DNA of 64,000 bases, from NCBI GenBank assembly GCA_026989275.1, contig JALSJQ010000022.1, positions 1-64,000 of the forward strand, read 5' to 3'. The stretch comes from Albidovulum sp. (lineage in GTDB: Bacteria > Pseudomonadota > Alphaproteobacteria > Rhodobacterales > Rhodobacteraceae). A model generated the notes under the pieces. The model searched no databases. It had not been told where the DNA came from and saw only the letters and a program-made list of their open reading frames with translations. The translations under genes were made by a program, and so were the position numbers. Position 1 is the stretch's first letter. Every line of letters begins with the position of its first letter. Positions 53,137-64,000 of the stretch are shown here, piece after piece.

Positions 53137-54885
<1,749 letters not shown>

Positions 54886-54898
54886 GCGCGGTTGAGGG

Positions 54899-56086
54899 AT
54901 GCGCGAGGACGCCCGCCATCAGGCCGCGATCGACATTCTCGACGCCTGGCTGGCCGGTGCCCCGGTCGAGAAGGCGCTGACGGGCTGGGCGCGGCGCAGC
55001 CGCTTCGCCGGGTCGCGCGACCGGGCGGCGGTGCGCGACATCGTGTTCGACGCCGTTCGCAAGCGCCGCTCGGCCGCCGCGCGCGGCGGTGGTGACACGG
55101 GGCGGGGTCTCGTTCTCGGCCTCCTCGTCGAGAAGGGGGCGGAGCCGGACCGCATCTTCACCGGCGCTCCTCATGCCCCGGCCCCGCTCACACGGGCCGA
55201 GCGCGCCCGGCTCGCCGCCCCGCCGGATCTGCCGCCGCCTGTCGCCCTCGACGTGCCCGACTGGCTCGCGCCGCGGCTCGCCGCCTCCCTCGGCGACGAT
55301 TTCGCCCCCGTCATGCGACTGATGCGCGAGCGCGCCCCGGTCTTTCTCAGGGTCAACACGCTCAAGGCAAACCGCGAAGAAGCGCTGGCGGCACTGGCCG
55401 GGGAAGGCATCGTCGCCCGCCCCCATCCCCTGGCCGCCACCGCGCTCGAGGTGACGGAGGGGGCGCGCCGCATCCGCCGGGCGGCGGCCTTTCGCGATGG
55501 GCTCGTGGAGTTGCAGGATGCGGCATCGCAGGCGGTGGTGGACGCCCTGCCGCTCGTTCCCGGAATGCGGGTTCTCGACCATTGCGCCGGTGGCGGCGGC
55601 AAGGCCCTCGCCATGGCCGCGCGCATGGGCGGCAAGGGCACGATCCTCGCCCATGACGCGAATGCGGGGCGGATGAAGGACCTGCCCGCCCGGGCCGCCC
55701 GGGCGGGGGCACGCATCGAGAGGACGGCGCGGCCCGAAGGTCTGTTCGACCTCGTTCTCGCCGACGCCCCCTGTTCGGGGTCCGGGGCCTGGCGGCGCAG
55801 CCCGGAAGGCAAATGGCGCCTCACTCCCGAACGGCTCGAGGCACTCCGGAGGCTTCAGGACCGGATCCTCGACGAGGCGGCCCCGTTCGTTGCCCCCGGC
55901 GGGCATCTCGCCCATGTCACCTGTTCCCTTCTCGAGGAGGAGAACCGGCAACGGGCCGAGTCCTTTCTCGCGCGCCATCGGGAATTTGCGCCCGAAGCGA
56001 ACCGCCGCTGGACCCCGCTCGAGGGCGGCGACGGCTTCGGCCTCGCCCTTTTCCGCCGCAAGGCGGACCGCGGGGGCGGGCGTTAA
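54899..56086 (+). CDS. RsmB-like RNA (cytosine-5)-methyltransferase
   Basis: The 395-residue SAM-dependent enzyme has an N-terminal NusB-like helical part (1-90), VFLRVNTLK, the SAM motif LDHCAGGGGKALAMAA (about 221-236) and the two cysteines of the Nol1/NOP2/RsmB mechanism: C292 in DAPCSGSGAWRR (motif IV) and C342 in VTCSLLEEEN (motif VI). RsmB acts on C967 of 16S rRNA; target assignment is by similarity only. Its TAA forms part of a TTAA-N7-TTAA site in front of the next gene. Confidence 0.92.
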   Translation: MREDARHQAAIDILDAWLAGAPVEKALTGWARRSRFAGSRDRAAVRDIVFDAVRKRRSAAARGGGDTGRGLVLGLLVEKGAEPDRIFTGAPHAPAPLTRAERARLAAPPDLPPPVALDVPDWLAPRLAASLGDDFAPVMRLMRERAPVFLRVNTLKANREEALAALAGEGIVARPHPLAATALEVTEGARRIRRAAAFRDGLVELQDAASQAVVDALPLVPGMRVLDHCAGGGGKALAMAARMGGKGTILAHDANAGRMKDLPARAARAGARIERTARPEGLFDLVLADAPCSGSGAWRRSPEGKWRLTPERLEALRRLQDRILDEAAPFVAPGGHLAHVTCSLLEEENRQRAESFLARHREFAPEANRRWTPLEGGDGFGLALFRRKADRGGGR

Positions 56087-56097: not shown

Positions 56098-56270
56098 GAC
56101 CTTCTGCGGCACAGTCGGGATGATTCGGTCGCCGGTTGCCGGGTCGGGGCCTGAACGCCTCGGCCCGGTGGGCACCGGAACCGGTGCGACGGGTGCGATG
56201 CGGCTGCCGCGTCGGCGAACAGGCAGACTGGACGGGCGGGCAAGGCGGACCGAGAAAGGCGGGAGGGGGC

Positions 56271-59200
56271 ATGGCCGGGCCATTCGGGCTCGAGATGCGG
56301 ACAGACAGCTGGCGCAGCGGCGGCGGTGCGCAGCGACGACGCATTGTCCATCCTGCCCTCGCCCTGCTCGCGGCCTGCCTGGTCCTGGGGGCGCTTCCTT
56401 TCCTGTTCCGGCCTGCCGCGCGCGATGCGGAGCTCCTGCGCCCATTGCTCGTCCCGCTCTTTTCGGCGCGACCGGGCGATGACGCCCCCGATACGCCGCC
56501 CGATGTCGTCGCCCCTGCCGCCCCCGATCTCGCCACTGGTGCCGCTACCGGTGCCGCCCCCGATGTTGCCGCCGATGTTGCCGTCGGTGTCGTCTCCGAG
56601 GTCGCCACCGATACCGTTTCCGATACCGGTGCCCCGGCCGGAGAGCCGATGCGTCCGGGCGCCCCCTCGGCCACTCTGATTGCGCCGCTCGCCCTTTTCC
56701 TCGGGCTGGCGGCGGCGCTGGCCAGCGCCTTTCTCCTCGGCCACCGATCGCACCGGGCACGCAGGGAGGGACCGATTGTCGATCTCCTTCTCGAGCGCGC
56801 CGATCTCGAGGGGCGACCGGCCTGCCTGACCGACGGGAAGGGGCGGATCCGGGCGCTCAACGCCGCGGCCCGATCGCGCATCCAGGCCCGCCATGCTCCC
56901 CGGCCCCGATCTGCCCGAGATAACGCTTCCGGCACACGGCCCGCCACCGAACCGCCGCCGCGGGACATCGCCGCGTTCGTCTCCCGCTGCCTTCCCGGAG
57001 GACGGGCGCCGCATCCGGGCACGATCCGCCGCATCCTTCTTGCCGGGCGGCGCATCAACCTGCCTCTCGGCGACCGCAGCAGGGAGCGGCTCGTGGTATT
57101 GCCCGCAGGGCGAAACCGCCTGCTCTGGGAGATCGCCGCGCCCACGAGCCGCACCGCCGCCGAAGCGGATGTCGCGCCGCTCGCGGCGGCCGTCCTCGTC
57201 GTCAGCCGCAGCGGCAGGCTCCTCGCGGCGAACCCGGCGGCCGAGGCCCTGCTCGGCCCGCTGCCTTCCCATCTCGAGGCGCTCGTTTCCGATCGGCCGT
57301 TGCGGCCCCACGGGGTGCACCCCGTCCGCACCCGCGACGGCGTGAGGGCGATGCGGATCATCACGCTCGAGCGCGAGGGAGGGCTGCGCCAGCTCCATTT
57401 CTTTCCCGTGGACGATGCCCAGAGCATGGCAGCGGGCGTCGAGGCGGTGATCGACCGGCTGCCCACCCCCCTTCTCAAGCTTTCGCCCGACGGGCGGATC
57501 CGCCATGCCAACCGGGCCGCCACCGCCCTTCTCGGCATATCGGCCCGGCCGGATCTCGCTCTCGGGGACCTCGTGGAAGGGCCCGGCATGCCTGTCGGGC
57601 GGTGGATCGCCCGGGCGCTGAACAGCGAGGAAGGGCTGCCGCCCGAGACCGTTCGTCTGTCCCGCCAAGAGGAGGAGCGGCATGTGCGGGTATCGCTGGT
57701 TCGCGGGCTGGAAGACGGCAGGCTCTTCATTCTGGCCCATCTCCACGACACCACGGCGCTGAAGCGGATGGAGGCGCAGATCGCGCAAAGCCAGCGGATG
57801 CATGCCATCGGCCAGCTGGCAGGTGGCATTGCGCATGATTTCAACAATCTGCTGGCCATTCTTTCAGCACGGTCGGAGGAGCTTCTCGAGCTGCTCGGCG
57901 AAGCGGACACGGCGGCGAAGGAGCAGATTGTGGCGATACGGGCCACCATCGAGCGCGGCGCGCGCCTCGTGCGGCGGATCCTCGCCTTCTCCCGCCGCCA
58001 GCCGATGAGGCTGCGCCCGCTCGCCCTCGCCGCCCTGCTCGAGGAAGCGGCCGGCCTACTTGCGCCGCTTCTCGGCCGGGGGATCGATCTCGTCATCGCC
58101 CCCGTGCCGGAAGAGGCGGTCGTCGAGGCCGATCCGGCGGCGCTCGAACAGATCGTCATCAACATCGCCGTCAACGCCCGCGACGCCATGAACGGAAAGG
58201 GCACGCTGCACATCTCCTCTCTCCTGCTCGCCCTCGAGAGCCCCGCGCGGCTGCGCGGCGCGCCGGTGAGCCTGCCGGCGGGGAAATGGGCGGTCCTCAG
58301 CCTGCGCGATACCGGCCCCGGCCTGCCGGAAGAGCAGATCGCCCGGCTGTTCGAACCCTTTTTCACCACCAAGCCGCCGGGCAAGGGCACCGGCCTCGGT
58401 CTGGCCATGTGCTACGGGCTGATGAAGCAGATGGGAGGATATGTCTTTGCCCGCAACCATCCCGAAGGCGGTGCCGAGTTCCTGCTCTGCCTGCCCTTGG
58501 CCGTCCCTGCCGAAGGGGAGGAAATGGGCGGGAAAGCGGCGCAGACCCGTTTCGAGGTGGAGTCTGCCGCTCTCGTGCCGCCCGCCACCGGCTTGCGGGG
58601 GGAAGGACCGCCCCGCCCGCTCCCGAAACCGCTCCCCACCGGGGAAGGCGCACCGGACGGATCGACCGCCCCGGTTGACGACCCGGCCGACGGGAAACGA
58701 CCTGTCTGCGCAAAAGGCGACCATGACGCTGCGTGCCGGGAGGAAGAGCCGTCCGTTGCCGCGCCGACGGCCCGGACCGTCGTGCTCGTCGAGGACGAGG
58801 CGCCGCTGCGCCGGTTCATCCACCGCTCCCTCGAGCTCGAGGGCTATCGCGTCCTTTCCTTCGCGAGCGGGGAAGAGGCCCTGCGCCACCTTCTCGGCGA
58901 AAAGAGTCCGCCCTGCGATCTCATCCTCAGCGACATCACCCTCCCCGGGTGCGACGGGCCGTCCTGGATCGCCCGGTATCGCGCAGCGCTGGCCACAAGG
59001 CGGGGTAGCGATGACGGGGTGCCGCAGGGGGCGGATCCGTCATCCGCGCATGCCCGGCCCGTCGAAACCGCGCCCGGCGCATCCGGCCACGACGAACGCC
59101 GCCCCGGCACGCCGCGCAGAAGGCCGCCGTCCCCCTCCCGTTCCGCAGGGCCCGAAGTGCGGGTGCTCCTGATGAGCGGAGGCGGCCCCGAGCCGGAGGG

Positions 59201-59318
59201 GGGCACGGGCGCGGTTTCGCCCTCGTGCGGTTTTCTCCACAAACCCTTCGACAGGAAAACCCTGATCGAGGAAGTCGCCCGGGCCTTCGCGCAAGGGGCG
59301 CCGCTGCCCGAAGGGTGA
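56271..59318 (+). CDS. cckA: Hybrid sensor histidine kinase, probable CckA orthologue
   Basis: A 1015-residue inner-membrane hybrid kinase: TM1 (25-46), an Ala/Val/Asp-rich outer loop (47-133), TM2 (134-157), PAS-like regions (about 170-490), HisKA with H522 in LAGGIAHDFNNLLAIL, HATPase with NIAVNARDAM and GTGLGLAMCYG, and a C-terminal receiver with D888 in LILSDITLPGCDG. The H-box and architecture are those of CckA, which feeds phosphate through ChpT to CtrA. It is longer than usual because of a linker (about 760-835) and a low-complexity insertion inside the receiver (about 905-960). The upstream Arg-rich frame is not used; GGGAGG precedes this ATG. Confidence 0.82.
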   Translation: MAGPFGLEMRTDSWRSGGGAQRRRIVHPALALLAACLVLGALPFLFRPAARDAELLRPLLVPLFSARPGDDAPDTPPDVVAPAAPDLATGAATGAAPDVAADVAVGVVSEVATDTVSDTGAPAGEPMRPGAPSATLIAPLALFLGLAAALASAFLLGHRSHRARREGPIVDLLLERADLEGRPACLTDGKGRIRALNAAARSRIQARHAPRPRSARDNASGTRPATEPPPRDIAAFVSRCLPGGRAPHPGTIRRILLAGRRINLPLGDRSRERLVVLPAGRNRLLWEIAAPTSRTAAEADVAPLAAAVLVVSRSGRLLAANPAAEALLGPLPSHLEALVSDRPLRPHGVHPVRTRDGVRAMRIITLEREGGLRQLHFFPVDDAQSMAAGVEAVIDRLPTPLLKLSPDGRIRHANRAATALLGISARPDLALGDLVEGPGMPVGRWIARALNSEEGLPPETVRLSRQEEERHVRVSLVRGLEDGRLFILAHLHDTTALKRMEAQIAQSQRMHAIGQLAGGIAHDFNNLLAILSARSEELLELLGEADTAAKEQIVAIRATIERGARLVRRILAFSRRQPMRLRPLALAALLEEAAGLLAPLLGRGIDLVIAPVPEEAVVEADPAALEQIVINIAVNARDAMNGKGTLHISSLLLALESPARLRGAPVSLPAGKWAVLSLRDTGPGLPEEQIARLFEPFFTTKPPGKGTGLGLAMCYGLMKQMGGYVFARNHPEGGAEFLLCLPLAVPAEGEEMGGKAAQTRFEVESAALVPPATGLRGEGPPRPLPKPLPTGEGAPDGSTAPVDDPADGKRPVCAKGDHDAACREEEPSVAAPTARTVVLVEDEAPLRRFIHRSLELEGYRVLSFASGEEALRHLLGEKSPPCDLILSDITLPGCDGPSWIARYRAALATRRGSDDGVPQGADPSSAHARPVETAPGASGHDERRPGTPRRRPPSPSRSAGPEVRVLLMSGGGPEPEGGTGAVSPSCGFLHKPFDRKTLIEEVARAFAQGAPLPEG

Positions 59319-60049: not shown

Positions 60050-62494
60050 GTGAAAACGCCGTCACGGAAGACGAGAAGGAATGCCGTGCGCCGTCTTCTC
60101 GGGCGGATCGGCTCCGGGATCCGTCGGGAAAGTGTGGTTCTCGCGAGCCTCCTCCTCGCTTTTGCGCCATCTGCGCATGCCCAGGATGCCATGTCAGCGG
60201 AGCTGCCGGTCACGATCGGCGATCTGGTCTTCACGCGCGCCGGCGCCGCGATCGCGCTTCGGCGAGAGGAGGAGGGCCTCGGCTTTCTGCGCGATACGAG
60301 CGCCCCGGTTCTCGAGCTGCGCCGGGGCGTGCCGGCACCGGCGCTTTTCGCCGGACAGAGCTGGCAGCCCGCCCCTGTCCTGACCGTGACCGCCGCCGAT
60401 ATCGGGCAGGTCTTCGGCCTTGCCCTGCGGCCGCGGCGCCTGCGCGTGGACGGAAAGGAAACCCTTGCCGCCGATGTCTTCATCGCCGCGAGTTCGGCCT
60501 ATGGCATCGCCCTCGCCGAACCCGACCCGGCCCATCCCGACCGGATCCGCCCGGCCCTCACCGGCGGCACGCGCGTCACCTTCGCGCCGGGCCAATGGGG
60601 GCGGCTTGCCGCGGCGGCCGGGCGCGGCTACGGCCCGGGGGCGATCTATCTTCTGGACGGGGTGACGGGCACGGTGCGCCATTTTGCCGAGGTGCGGCCG
60701 CTCGGCCGACCCAACAGCGGCGCCGCCCTCGGCAACCTCGCCTGGGATCCGCGCCACGGGCTACTCTTCGTTTCCGACAGGGAAAGCGGGTTGATCCTGG
60801 CACTCGACGCGCGGGGACGCGAAGTGGACCGCTTCGATCACGGGCTCGCGGCGCGGCCGCTGGCGGACCTGCCCCCCGCTCCCCTCGTGCCGGCCGCATC
60901 CGGCTCCTCCTCGCCGGATTTTCGCCCCGCGGTTCCCGCCAGCTGGGGGCTCGCCCCCCTGTCGCGGCGGGTCTGGGGGCTCGCGGTGCACCGGGGGCGG
61001 CTCTACTACGGAGCCGCCGAGGGCCCTTCCCTCTGGTCGGTCGGGATCGACGCGAAGACCGGCCGTTTCCTCGACGATCCGCGGCTCGAACTCGTGGTGC
61101 TCGAAGCCGGCCCCGACGCCGAGATTGCCGACATCGCCTTCGCCCCGAGCGGCGAAGTGCTGCTGGCCCTGCGGGCCCTGCCGACGCGGATCGATCCGCA
61201 AGGGGATCTTTCCCGCCCCGCGGAAGGGCATGTGCTGGCCTATCGTCCCGTGAAGGACGATCCGCGCCGGTGGGATCAGGTCCCGCGGCGGATCGGGGTG
61301 GGGGCCGGCGGCACGAGCGGTGATGGCGGCATCGCCCTCGGCCCGACCATCGACTGGGACGGCCGCCCCCTTCTCCAGCGCTGCGGCGAACGGGTGGTCG
61401 CCACGGGGCATCGCCTGCCCGTCGCCCCGCCCGCGGCCCCTTCCATGACCACGCCGCTTTTCACAGGCGTGCAGCTGAGCCCGCTGCGGGTCTCGGCACC
61501 GGCGGCCCTGCCCCCGGCGGCCACCATCGCCCTGCCGGCCATCGAACCGCTCCTCCTTCCCGAGCGCGCCGGCACGATGGGGGATGTCGCCCTTTTCGCC
61601 CCCTGCCCGGCAAATGGCGGCGCGGCGCTCTTCGCGATGTGCCGGGCGGCGGGCTGGGTGCCGGGAAGCGGCGGCGTCGTGACCCCGAGCAGCTCCGGTC
61701 CGGGACCGGGCAGCACCCTTCCCGCCGATCCGGGCGGCGGGCTCTCCGGCGGCGGCTTTCCCCTGCCCCTTCCTCTCCCCGTTCCCCTGCCTCCCGGCGG
61801 TGGTGAACCGACCGGACCGGGCGCTACCTGCCTTGCGGCCGATCCGGCGGTGAGCTGTGGCGAGAACGGCACCTTTCTCGTCGATCTCGGCGCGGCGGCG
61901 ACGGCAGGGCTGGGTGCCGATTCGGTGAAGGTGACCTCCCTCACACCGGGTGTTGCGGTGGTCGGCGGGCCGGTCTTCCCCCTGCCCGGCGGACAGATCC
62001 CCCTCGCCGGCGCCGCCCCCGGCCAGAGCGTCACCCTCGGCCTGTGCGCATTCGACAGCGCCGCGGCCGCCGGCGACGCCCCCTTCAGCTGCTGCCGGCG
62101 TCGGATCACCCTGACCATGCCCGCCGCCTGCACGGGCGGAGGCGACGCGGGACAGGGGGGCGACGAAGCTTCTTGCCTTTCGCCGCGGCTGCAATCCCTC
62201 TGCCGGACACCGGAGGGGGTGCGGATCACGCTCGATCCGGGCGCCGCTCCCGCGCTCGGCGCCGATGCACTGAAGGTGACGAGCCTCGTGCCCGGCGTGC
62301 GCCCGATCGGCGGGCCGATCCTGCCCCTGCCTCCCGCGATCCTTTCCCTCGCCGGTGCCATGCCGGGGCAGACGGTGTCGCTCGCGCTGTGTGCCTTCTC
62401 GAGCGCCGATGCGGCAAGCGGCGGCCCCTTCAGCTGCTGCCGCGGCCGGCTCGATATCGCCATTGACAAGGAGATGCCCGCATGTCCCGACTGA
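60050..62494 (+). CDS. Secreted beta-propeller-like protein with two cysteine-rich C-terminal modules
   Basis: An 814-residue exported protein starting at GTG behind GGGAGGAAG. A Sec signal peptide (VVLASLLLAFAPSAHA) ends near residue 44. Residues about 50-565 look like an NHL/SMP-30-type beta-propeller (LAWDPRHGLLFVSDRESG, VWGLAVHRGRLYYGA, IADIAFAPSGEVLLAL) ending in TMGDVALFAPC. A Pro/Gly linker leads to two modules (594-694 and 709-812) sharing VTSL-PGV, GGP, LAGA-PGQ-V-L-LCAF and PFSCCR, each closing at a P..C. I do not know a function. Its last 13 bp overlap the next gene, which carries a third copy of the module. Confidence 0.82.
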   Translation: MKTPSRKTRRNAVRRLLGRIGSGIRRESVVLASLLLAFAPSAHAQDAMSAELPVTIGDLVFTRAGAAIALRREEEGLGFLRDTSAPVLELRRGVPAPALFAGQSWQPAPVLTVTAADIGQVFGLALRPRRLRVDGKETLAADVFIAASSAYGIALAEPDPAHPDRIRPALTGGTRVTFAPGQWGRLAAAAGRGYGPGAIYLLDGVTGTVRHFAEVRPLGRPNSGAALGNLAWDPRHGLLFVSDRESGLILALDARGREVDRFDHGLAARPLADLPPAPLVPAASGSSSPDFRPAVPASWGLAPLSRRVWGLAVHRGRLYYGAAEGPSLWSVGIDAKTGRFLDDPRLELVVLEAGPDAEIADIAFAPSGEVLLALRALPTRIDPQGDLSRPAEGHVLAYRPVKDDPRRWDQVPRRIGVGAGGTSGDGGIALGPTIDWDGRPLLQRCGERVVATGHRLPVAPPAAPSMTTPLFTGVQLSPLRVSAPAALPPAATIALPAIEPLLLPERAGTMGDVALFAPCPANGGAALFAMCRAAGWVPGSGGVVTPSSSGPGPGSTLPADPGGGLSGGGFPLPLPLPVPLPPGGGEPTGPGATCLAADPAVSCGENGTFLVDLGAAATAGLGADSVKVTSLTPGVAVVGGPVFPLPGGQIPLAGAAPGQSVTLGLCAFDSAAAAGDAPFSCCRRRITLTMPAACTGGGDAGQGGDEASCLSPRLQSLCRTPEGVRITLDPGAAPALGADALKVTSLVPGVRPIGGPILPLPPAILSLAGAMPGQTVSLALCAFSSADAASGGPFSCCRGRLDIAIDKEMPACPD

Positions 62495-64000
62495 GCTCCG
62501 CCCCCCATGCCGCGCTCTTCCGCATCATGGCCGGGCTCCTTCTCGGCGCGGCCGCCTTCGCGCCTGCGGGCCACGCCCAGGAAGGCGGGCTGTGCGAAAC
62601 CTTCGAACAGGTGGGGAGCACCAGCGGTTTCGCCGCCTGCCCCGACCGGCCCCAGGTCACCGTCTCGACCGACACGGCCAACGGGATCGACGGCAGCTAT
62701 CTGCTGTTGCAGGATCTCTCGGGCCCTTCACAGGCCTGCAATGTCTCGCCCCGCTTCACCGGCAACTGGCTCGAGAAGGTCGGGCAATGCGGGCGGCTCT
62801 GCTTCGATTTCCGGCTGTTCTATGCCGGGCAGAACCCCGACGGCTCGACGCCGACCGTCTATCCCCGCATCGTCATCGTCGGTCCGGCCCCGACCAATGT
62901 GAACCGGGCGGTGTTCCGGGCCTTCAACCCGGTCACCATGGCCGATGGCTGGGTGCGTATCTGTGCGCCGATCCGTCCGCTGCAGCCGGGAGAGACGACC
63001 TTGCCGGCCAATGCCGACGGCGAATGGCGCATGCCCGATTCGAGCGGCAGCAATTTCGCCAACACCAACATCGCCAACTGGAACGCCACCATCGGCAACG
63101 TCACGGAATTCCGCCTGCCGATCGACTATTCGCCCCAGCCTTCCGAACGCGCAGGCTATGACAATTTCTGCTTCGAGCCCGGCGGTTGCGGCGCCGACAC
63201 GCCGCCCCCGAGCTGCCTTGCGGTCACCCCTGCCGAAGTGTCCTGCGTCGCCGGACAGCCGGTGGTCGCCCTCACCCTCACCCCTGCCCCCGGCACCAGC
63301 CCCGACGCGGTCGAGATCACCGCGACAACGCCCGGTGTCAGCGTGGTGCCGGCGGGGCCGCAGGCCTTCGGCTCGCCGGTGGTGGCACAGATCCTCGGCG
63401 CGGCGCCCGGCAGCACTGTCAGCCTGATGGTCAACACCATCGAGAACGGTGCCGGCGCCGTGGCGGGCAGCGATCTGTGCTGCCTTGGCGAAACGCAGCT
63501 CCAGATCCCCGCGGACTGCACGCCGGCAAATGGAGGCCCGGTGGGCGATGGCGGAAGCGCGGGAAATGCGGGAGGTGCCGGGCAGGGCCAAGGCGTCGAT
63601 CTTGCACTCGAGAAGACCCAGGTGCCGACCCCGGCGCAGGTGGGCTGGGTGGCGTGGTATCTCGACGTGACCAGCAACGGGCCCGGCACGGTGCCGGCCG
63701 CGGCCGGCCTGAGCGTTCAGGACCAGGTGCCGGCCGGCGTGACGATCACCAGCGCCGGCAGCGCCGACTTCACCTGCAGCCCCGTTCCCGTCACCGGGCC
63801 CGCGACGCTGACCTGCAGCTATTCCGGTATCGGCCCGATTCCTCCCGGTCCCGTCGGCCGCATCACGATCGAGGCCACCTGGGACACGCAGGAGACCCCG
63901 GCACCGGGCGAGAATTGCGCCACGCTCGCGATGACGGCTCCCGATGCCCCGACCGATGCCGATCCACAGAATGACAGCGCCTGCGCACCGACGCACACGG
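62482..64000 (+). CDS. Secreted cysteine-rich protein with jellyroll-like and DUF11-like domains, 3' end beyond window
   Basis: The visible 506 codons begin with a signal peptide (IMAGLLLGAAAFAPAGHA, cut near 33). Residues about 36-240 form a compact domain ending in the ERAGYDNFCFE pattern seen in laminin-B/carbohydrate-binding-like jellyrolls. Residues 245-346 repeat the cysteine module of the preceding protein (CLAVTPAEVSC, TTPGVSVV, GAAPGSTVSL, SDLCC, C346). After a Gly-rich linker, a DUF11-type domain starts near 372 (LALEKTQVPTPAQVGWVAWY). AAGGAG lies 8 nt before the ATG, which overlaps the upstream gene by 13 bp. Likely a surface or secreted structural protein; function unknown. Confidence 0.8.
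   Translation, partial: MSRLSSAPHAALFRIMAGLLLGAAAFAPAGHAQEGGLCETFEQVGSTSGFAACPDRPQVTVSTDTANGIDGSYLLLQDLSGPSQACNVSPRFTGNWLEKVGQCGRLCFDFRLFYAGQNPDGSTPTVYPRIVIVGPAPTNVNRAVFRAFNPVTMADGWVRICAPIRPLQPGETTLPANADGEWRMPDSSGSNFANTNIANWNATIGNVTEFRLPIDYSPQPSERAGYDNFCFEPGGCGADTPPPSCLAVTPAEVSCVAGQPVVALTLTPAPGTSPDAVEITATTPGVSVVPAGPQAFGSPVVAQILGAAPGSTVSLMVNTIENGAGAVAGSDLCCLGETQLQIPADCTPANGGPVGDGGSAGNAGGAGQGQGVDLALEKTQVPTPAQVGWVAWYLDVTSNGPGTVPAAAGLSVQDQVPAGVTITSAGSADFTCSPVPVTGPATLTCSYSGIGPIPPGPVGRITIEATWDTQETPAPGENCATLAMTAPDAPTDADPQNDSACAPTHT

Follow-up and report, generated by a model that had tools for sequence, protein, structure and literature searches.

The right-hand end of the DNA analysed here raises the question of why two overlapping genes should each encode an apparently secreted, cysteine-rich protein, and whether both products belong together. 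This stretch, hereafter the window, comprises the first 64,000 nucleotides of contig JALSJQ010000022.1 of Albidovulum sp., and the two genes, which we call P1 and P2, lie on its forward strand. P1 (60050..62494) begins with a GTG start and encodes a propeller protein of 814 amino acids (aa). P2 (62482..64000 in the window) starts with the ATG at 62482 and encodes a stalk and anchor protein of 763 aa; the gene runs to 64773, its stop lying 773 bp past the window edge within the 70,821-bp contig. Our analyses favour, with moderate confidence, the view that P1 and P2 constitute one envelope protein made as two chains, in the order head, break, stalk and anchor, and joined at the break by a cysteine-rich module present in both of them.

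The evidence that carries this proposal comes from the relatives of the pair. A pattern scan of ~85,000 named genomes returned 39 loci, all of them in Alphaproteobacteria, while a propeller profile applied to 395 genomes of the family, 385 of the class and 349 of the phylum matched 6, 5 and 11 of them, respectively, the last all belonging to the same class; the low counts indicate an accessory family with a patchy distribution. At 16 split loci, two of which are identical in sequence, the propeller gene ends in the module immediately before its stop codon, and the next gene on the same strand is P2-like in every case. The module was present in this neighbour at 15 of the 16, the remaining stretch (L095) stopping first, at the contig end. 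The first-pass annotation had named, as one ground for refutation, homologues that are never adjacent in other genomes, a condition contradicted by all 16 module-bearing loci. Propeller open reading frames (ORFs) devoid of the module behave differently, since 37 of the 38 that could be scored extend as one chain into a tail of ~200-1800 residues. Among 37 such ORFs scanned, DUF11 appeared in 14, PG_binding_1 in 10 and vWA in 4, and the corresponding scan of ten P2 proteins found DUF11 in eight, PG_binding_1 in five and DUF7929 in three. Overall, the module accompanied 16/16 split loci and 0/38 scorable single chains. Genes that are fused in some species and occur as a coupled pair in others point to products that act together. 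Thus, the proposal that both proteins cooperate outside the cytoplasm, originally drawn from gene coupling and a private module, is now strongly supported by the conserved pairing, the single-chain relatives and the confinement of the module.

This confinement was observed at every scale searched. As previously noticed, a C...CC...C module is common to both proteins, with two copies in P1 and one in P2. The P1 copies (61829..62131 and 62174..62485, + strand) are C-terminal, contain six cysteines each in the pattern C..C..C..CC..C and matched profile A7 with E values of 1.3e-30 and 1.2e-29; the first is rich in beta-strands in the structural model. The P2 copy (63214..63519, + strand; E 5.9e-26) contains five cysteines. 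Against 3,781 ORFs from all loci, the profile matched only split P1 proteins and their P2 partners, 11 of the matched stretches being seeds of the profile itself and the rest independent. Among 20 genomes searched whole, all 13 split genomes were matched, exclusively in P1 and P2, and all seven single-chain genomes gave no match. A wider search, extended to 372 genomes of the class, returned four matches, every one with the P1-P2 pair. The other ground for refutation, a match to a characterised family with a known solitary role, likewise failed; within the 13 whole genomes the module is restricted to the pair, and solved structures yielded only weak matches to fibronectin and antibody immunoglobulin (Ig)-like domains. 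In a tree of the modules, the P1 and P2 types were reciprocally monophyletic with support of 100/99, indicating that both types diverged before the pair spread. A private module seemingly added exactly at the cut predicts the point where the two chains would meet.

The genes themselves overlap. The 13 bp reported to be shared by the adjacent ORFs were read at 62482..62494 (+ strand), where the P1 stop overlaps the P2 start, and the sister species (G001) keeps both genes with an identical overlap. A putative ribosome-binding site for P2, AAGGAG (62468..62473, + strand), is embedded in the P1 reading frame 8 nt ahead of the ATG; the same motif occurs at the P1 3' end in L043, L045 and L039, and GGAG in L044. 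Stop and start overlapped in all six junctions read at base level (13 bp, TAATG and ATGA, twice each). Protein identity to the sister species was 76% for P1 and 81% for P2, and the ratios of nonsynonymous to synonymous substitution (Ka/Ks) of 0.29 for P1 and 0.28 for the first 505 aa of P2 identify both as selected coding genes under purifying selection. Likewise, the previous assignment of both products to Sec export agrees with apparent signal peptides recognised by eye, which span residues 1-44 of P1 (60050..60181, + strand; APSAHA/QD) and residues 1-32 of P2 (62482..62577, + strand; APAGHA/QE).

Structure prediction confirmed the propeller-like domain formerly proposed for P1. The AlphaFold2 model, with a whole-chain mean confidence (pLDDT, predicted local distance difference test) of 74 and most core blocks at 81-97, contains a six-bladed YWTD-type beta-propeller at approximately residues 50-530 (60197..61639, + strand). 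According to VIA-align 2, its top solved structure is the YWTD propeller of nidogen (1npe, Z 25.9 over 257 residues), followed by LRP4, LRP6 and megalin (Z ~24) and then TolB (Z ~21.7). A Pro/Gly-rich linker (residues 531-593; 61640..61828, + strand), with pLDDT <50 across most of its length, separates the propeller from the modules. P1 thus shares the six-bladed fold of the YWTD propellers of nidogen, LRP4/6, LDLR and megalin (Z 23-26), but differs from them in its 9-15% identity, in the lack of an adjoining EGF module and in the result that 15 split P1 proteins matched no Pfam family, Ldl_recept_b (YWTD) sequence repeats included. Pfam and NCBIfam scans assigned no function to P1, and no solved structure was significantly related by sequence to either P1 or P2. 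Many propellers of the family contain a PDxDxDGxPER-like motif with the appearance of a calcium loop, matched as a pattern in 18 of 59 ORFs; it is degenerate in the P1 of the window (60518-60553, EPDPAHPDRIRP).

P2 displays the attributes of a stalk and an anchor. The DUF11-type repeat that had been recognised in it was confirmed by Pfam (PF01345, 33.6 bits with a cut-off of 24.6) as a DUF11/CLIPPER stalk domain at residues 373-502 (63598..63987, + strand). In fibrillar adhesins, DUF11 is known as the CLIPPER domain of the stalk and contains a Lys-Asp-Asn isopeptide (PMC12617251), and the predicted triad of P2, K378/D414/N478, is conserved in 12 of 12 aligned DUF11 rows, from which formation of an isopeptide bond appears likely; the DUF11 sequence profile did not pick up 9IFR. 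Both this domain and a second Ig-like domain (residues 518-625 and 703-710) were modelled well. Residues 518-710 resembled the CLIPPER crystal structure 9ifr (Z 13.4) and cohesins (Z ~12.9), so that P2 contains a repeated Ig-like stalk, and several DUF11 repeats occur in relatives. Well-predicted peptidoglycan-binding helices (residues 633-694) are inserted in the second domain, and the corresponding PG_binding_1 match (PF01471, 24.0 bits with a cut-off of 23.0) suggests that P2 may bind peptidoglycan. These helices interrupt the Ig/CLIPPER-like domain ahead of its final strand (L002:6033-6614, window 64033-64614), and a motif that follows the insert, CVTVDLPPMP in relatives, recurs.

The N-terminal part of P2 is less well defined. 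A cysteine-containing domain at residues 34-236 (62581..63189, + strand) has a homologue in G341, and the first 240 residues were modelled with pLDDT values mostly of 26-63 per ten-residue block, a low confidence that left the jellyroll-like domain proposed there unconfirmed. In the f174 pair this position is occupied by Pfam DUF7929 (L110:7480-8004; PF25551, 290 bits), which implies that the N-terminal domain of P2 has been swapped between lineages; DUF7929, for which an isopeptide bond was recently predicted, appears in PMC12617251 as no more than a table entry. In family f4 (L096:3322-8490, - strand; L098:1328-5020, + strand), the P2 partner seems, by eye, to have another propeller-like stretch N-terminal to the module, close to the start of the chain. 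Mature P2 chains had an odd number of cysteines, ranging from 25 to 69, in all ten cases counted (L002, L039, L043, L044, L045, L096, L098, L110, L111 and L112). This odd total mirrors the P2-type module, with its five cysteines, or three in family f4, and would leave one cysteine without an intrachain partner. An interchain P1-P2 disulfide deduced from such parity was considered and dropped, and no bond of this kind is claimed because the parity of P1 varies by lineage.

Taken together, these features could describe an assembly in which the overlap of the genes allows both chains to be produced together and Sec exports them. P1 would provide the head, a six-bladed propeller likely to bind a ligand, followed by a flexible linker and the two terminal modules. 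P2 would contribute its own module, the DUF11/CLIPPER Ig-like domain, which an intramolecular isopeptide bond probably locks, and finally the anchor, a peptidoglycan-binding helical domain within its last cohesin/CLIPPER-like Ig domain. The homologous modules, presumably stabilised by disulfide bonds, might bind each other, P1 type with six cysteines to P2 type with five, and reconnect head and stalk, the whole behaving as a peptidoglycan-tethered protein resembling a fibrillar adhesin, with a possible adhesive function. In more general terms, the balance inclines slightly towards paralogous, disulfide-rich Ig-like docking modules that let bacteria split a head-stalk-anchor protein, that are lost in one-chain forms and that represent an undescribed, orthogonal extracytoplasmic pair.

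Phylogenetic analysis is compatible with this scheme. Split-gene propellers do not form one clade (approximately unbiased test, p 2e-7), and the best tree shows five changes between the split and single states, of which at least three are forced. The module and propeller trees can both be explained by one origin of the module pair and later fusions that dropped the module, or by exchange of heads; non-monophyletic split propellers together with monophyletic module types are what would be expected if the module became superfluous on fusion and was then shed. Well-supported branches hold three independent pairs, each of which runs in the direction expected (sign test, p 0.25).

Several observations weigh against the proposed assembly. 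A simple 1:1 pairing is not obvious, given the two module copies of P1 and the single copy of P2, and the modules could alternatively reflect plain inheritance of a duplicated Ig domain. Independent transitions between the split and single states number only 3-5, too few for a sign test to attain 0.05. The PG_binding_1 score of P2 is marginal and the domain was matched in only five of ten P2 proteins. Furthermore, passage through the outer membrane is unexplained, because GspK, the single component on which type II secretion was judged, was not detected in the window genome (G000) or its sister (G001), although it is present in G341, G833 and G1062. A peptidoglycan-binding domain would confine P2 to the periplasm if the stalk did not cross the outer membrane, and the pair might accordingly occupy either a surface or a periplasmic position.

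Such a location leads to the strongest alternative, a periplasmic scaffold of the TolB-Pal kind, in which a propeller docked on a peptidoglycan-bound partner would serve envelope integrity rather than adhesion. We regard this as possible, if clearly less probable than the two-chain assembly. The presence of TolB chains among the fold matches of the propeller (Z ~21.7), the PG_binding_1 domain of P2 and the failure to detect GspK in the window genome and its sister speak in its favour, as does the result that neither P1 nor P2 matched an outer-membrane, LPXTG or autotransporter domain. However, YWTD propellers scored higher (Z 25.9), and Pfam found neither the TolB N-terminal domain nor an OmpA-like Pal domain in P1 or P2. 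Moreover, the vWA domains, DUF11 repeats and EB modules of the single-chain relatives are typical of extended extracellular proteins, and a patchy distribution is ill-suited to a core envelope function. The resemblance to TolB-Pal is that of a propeller with a peptidoglycan-binding partner, while the propeller subtype, the peptidoglycan-binding fold, the tether made of homologous modules and the accessory distribution set P1-P2 apart.

It is rather unlikely that the modules are an inherited, duplicated Ig domain that binds a ligand or acts as a spacer, P1 and P2 working in parallel with no docking between them. Two copies do occur within P1 alone, co-inheritance by itself could hold modules and pair together, and the independent transitions are few. 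Nevertheless, a module of that sort would hardly be anticipated to show a complete association with chain separation, to sit at the cut, where it forms the very C-terminal end of each split P1, and to be found nowhere else in 13 split genomes. That the propeller is an enzyme (a hydrolase or lactonase of the SMP-30/DFPase kind) held at the wall through P2 is improbable and was set aside, since the DFPase profile matches are weak (best 0.0017, to an engineered relative, then 0.006) and may reflect the common fold alone, and binding propellers match the fold better, in spite of fold matches of Z ~21 and many invariant polar residues.

As regards the two-chain assembly, its closest known counterparts are fibrillar adhesins with DUF11/CLIPPER stalks (PF01345; for example Acinetobacter B9T28_05395, PDB 9IFR; PMC12617251, PMC9210967). 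Like them, P1-P2 is modular and apparently secreted, with an N-terminal head and an Ig-like DUF11 stalk containing the Lys/Asp/Asn triad. Their C-terminal anchor is OmpA-like, whereas that of P2 is PG_binding_1; head and stalk of P1-P2 are two co-translated chains with a private cysteine-rich module pair at the break; and the head is a YWTD-type propeller, a word, 'propeller', absent from the text of both papers. Pfam matched no known adhesive domain, a defining feature of fibrillar adhesins, in P1 or P2, the head being an unclassified propeller, and hence we propose that the pair works like a fibrillar adhesin and do not count it as a member of that class. The single-chain alphaproteobacterial proteins (Devosia, Kaistia, Palleronia, Roseibium and others) share the propeller family, and many combine DUF11, PG_binding_1, vWA or EB in one polypeptide, but unlike P1-P2 they are encoded by one gene lacking the module; no description of them was found in the literature searched. 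Cohesin-dockerin scaffolds also assemble two chains through dedicated modules, and a cohesin-like fold is predicted for the final Ig domain of P2, though the proposed docking modules of P1 and P2 are homologous to each other and no dockerin was matched.

Taken singly, the parts of P1 and P2 are all folds or domains of kinds already known. Their distribution over two chains that share dedicated paralogous modules is undescribed as far as the libraries and literature searched show, and no paper on a propeller-DUF11 family was found in that literature. If correct, the model would add a new extracytoplasmic docking pair, would supply a partner and an architecture for DUF11/DUF7929 proteins of Rhodobacterales and Hyphomicrobiales with no assigned function, and would make the ligand of the propeller heads a directly testable question.

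Two expectations about the surroundings of the pair had to be abandoned. The secreted cluster does not continue past the window but consists of two genes, P2 being followed by a chpT-like gene on the reverse strand, a short ORF and olsB. Nor is the vicinity free of housekeeping genes, as guaB (53434..54885), rsmB (54899..56086) and a CckA-like hybrid histidine kinase (56136..59318) lie upstream on the + strand, outside the system. The pair is thereby placed between cckA and chpT, where the names of kinase, ChpT and RsmB rest on hit ranking and architecture because their scores fall below curated cut-offs. In the sister species the kinase end likewise precedes the pair, and genes resembling chpT and olsB come after it. 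G006, a member of the family that lacks the pair, has a sulfotransferase-like gene and recA (named by eye) behind rsmB-cckA, which indicates that the slot 3' of cckA is variable. Comparison of the window, f174 and G341 loci showed no conserved neighbours beyond the pair. Plasmid-borne spread was rejected, one distant match lying on a Ciceribacter replicon and none being obtained for P1 of the window.

Some minor observations concern individual relatives. Two genome bins assigned to different families (G532 and G619; L095/L096) contain identical P1 propellers, and one of them has 10% contamination, so that they probably represent a single organism. Upstream, the G341 pair is preceded by a third ORF (L039:11808-13142, - strand) whose product is also secreted and rich in cysteine and combines EB-like repeats with a stretch resembling a peptidoglycan-binding domain. 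Finally, the single-chain propeller protein of G375 (L093:5297-9052) has a C-terminal run of numerous short, His-rich repeats (SxFHRTHxSAQHDPATTRQxQVH).

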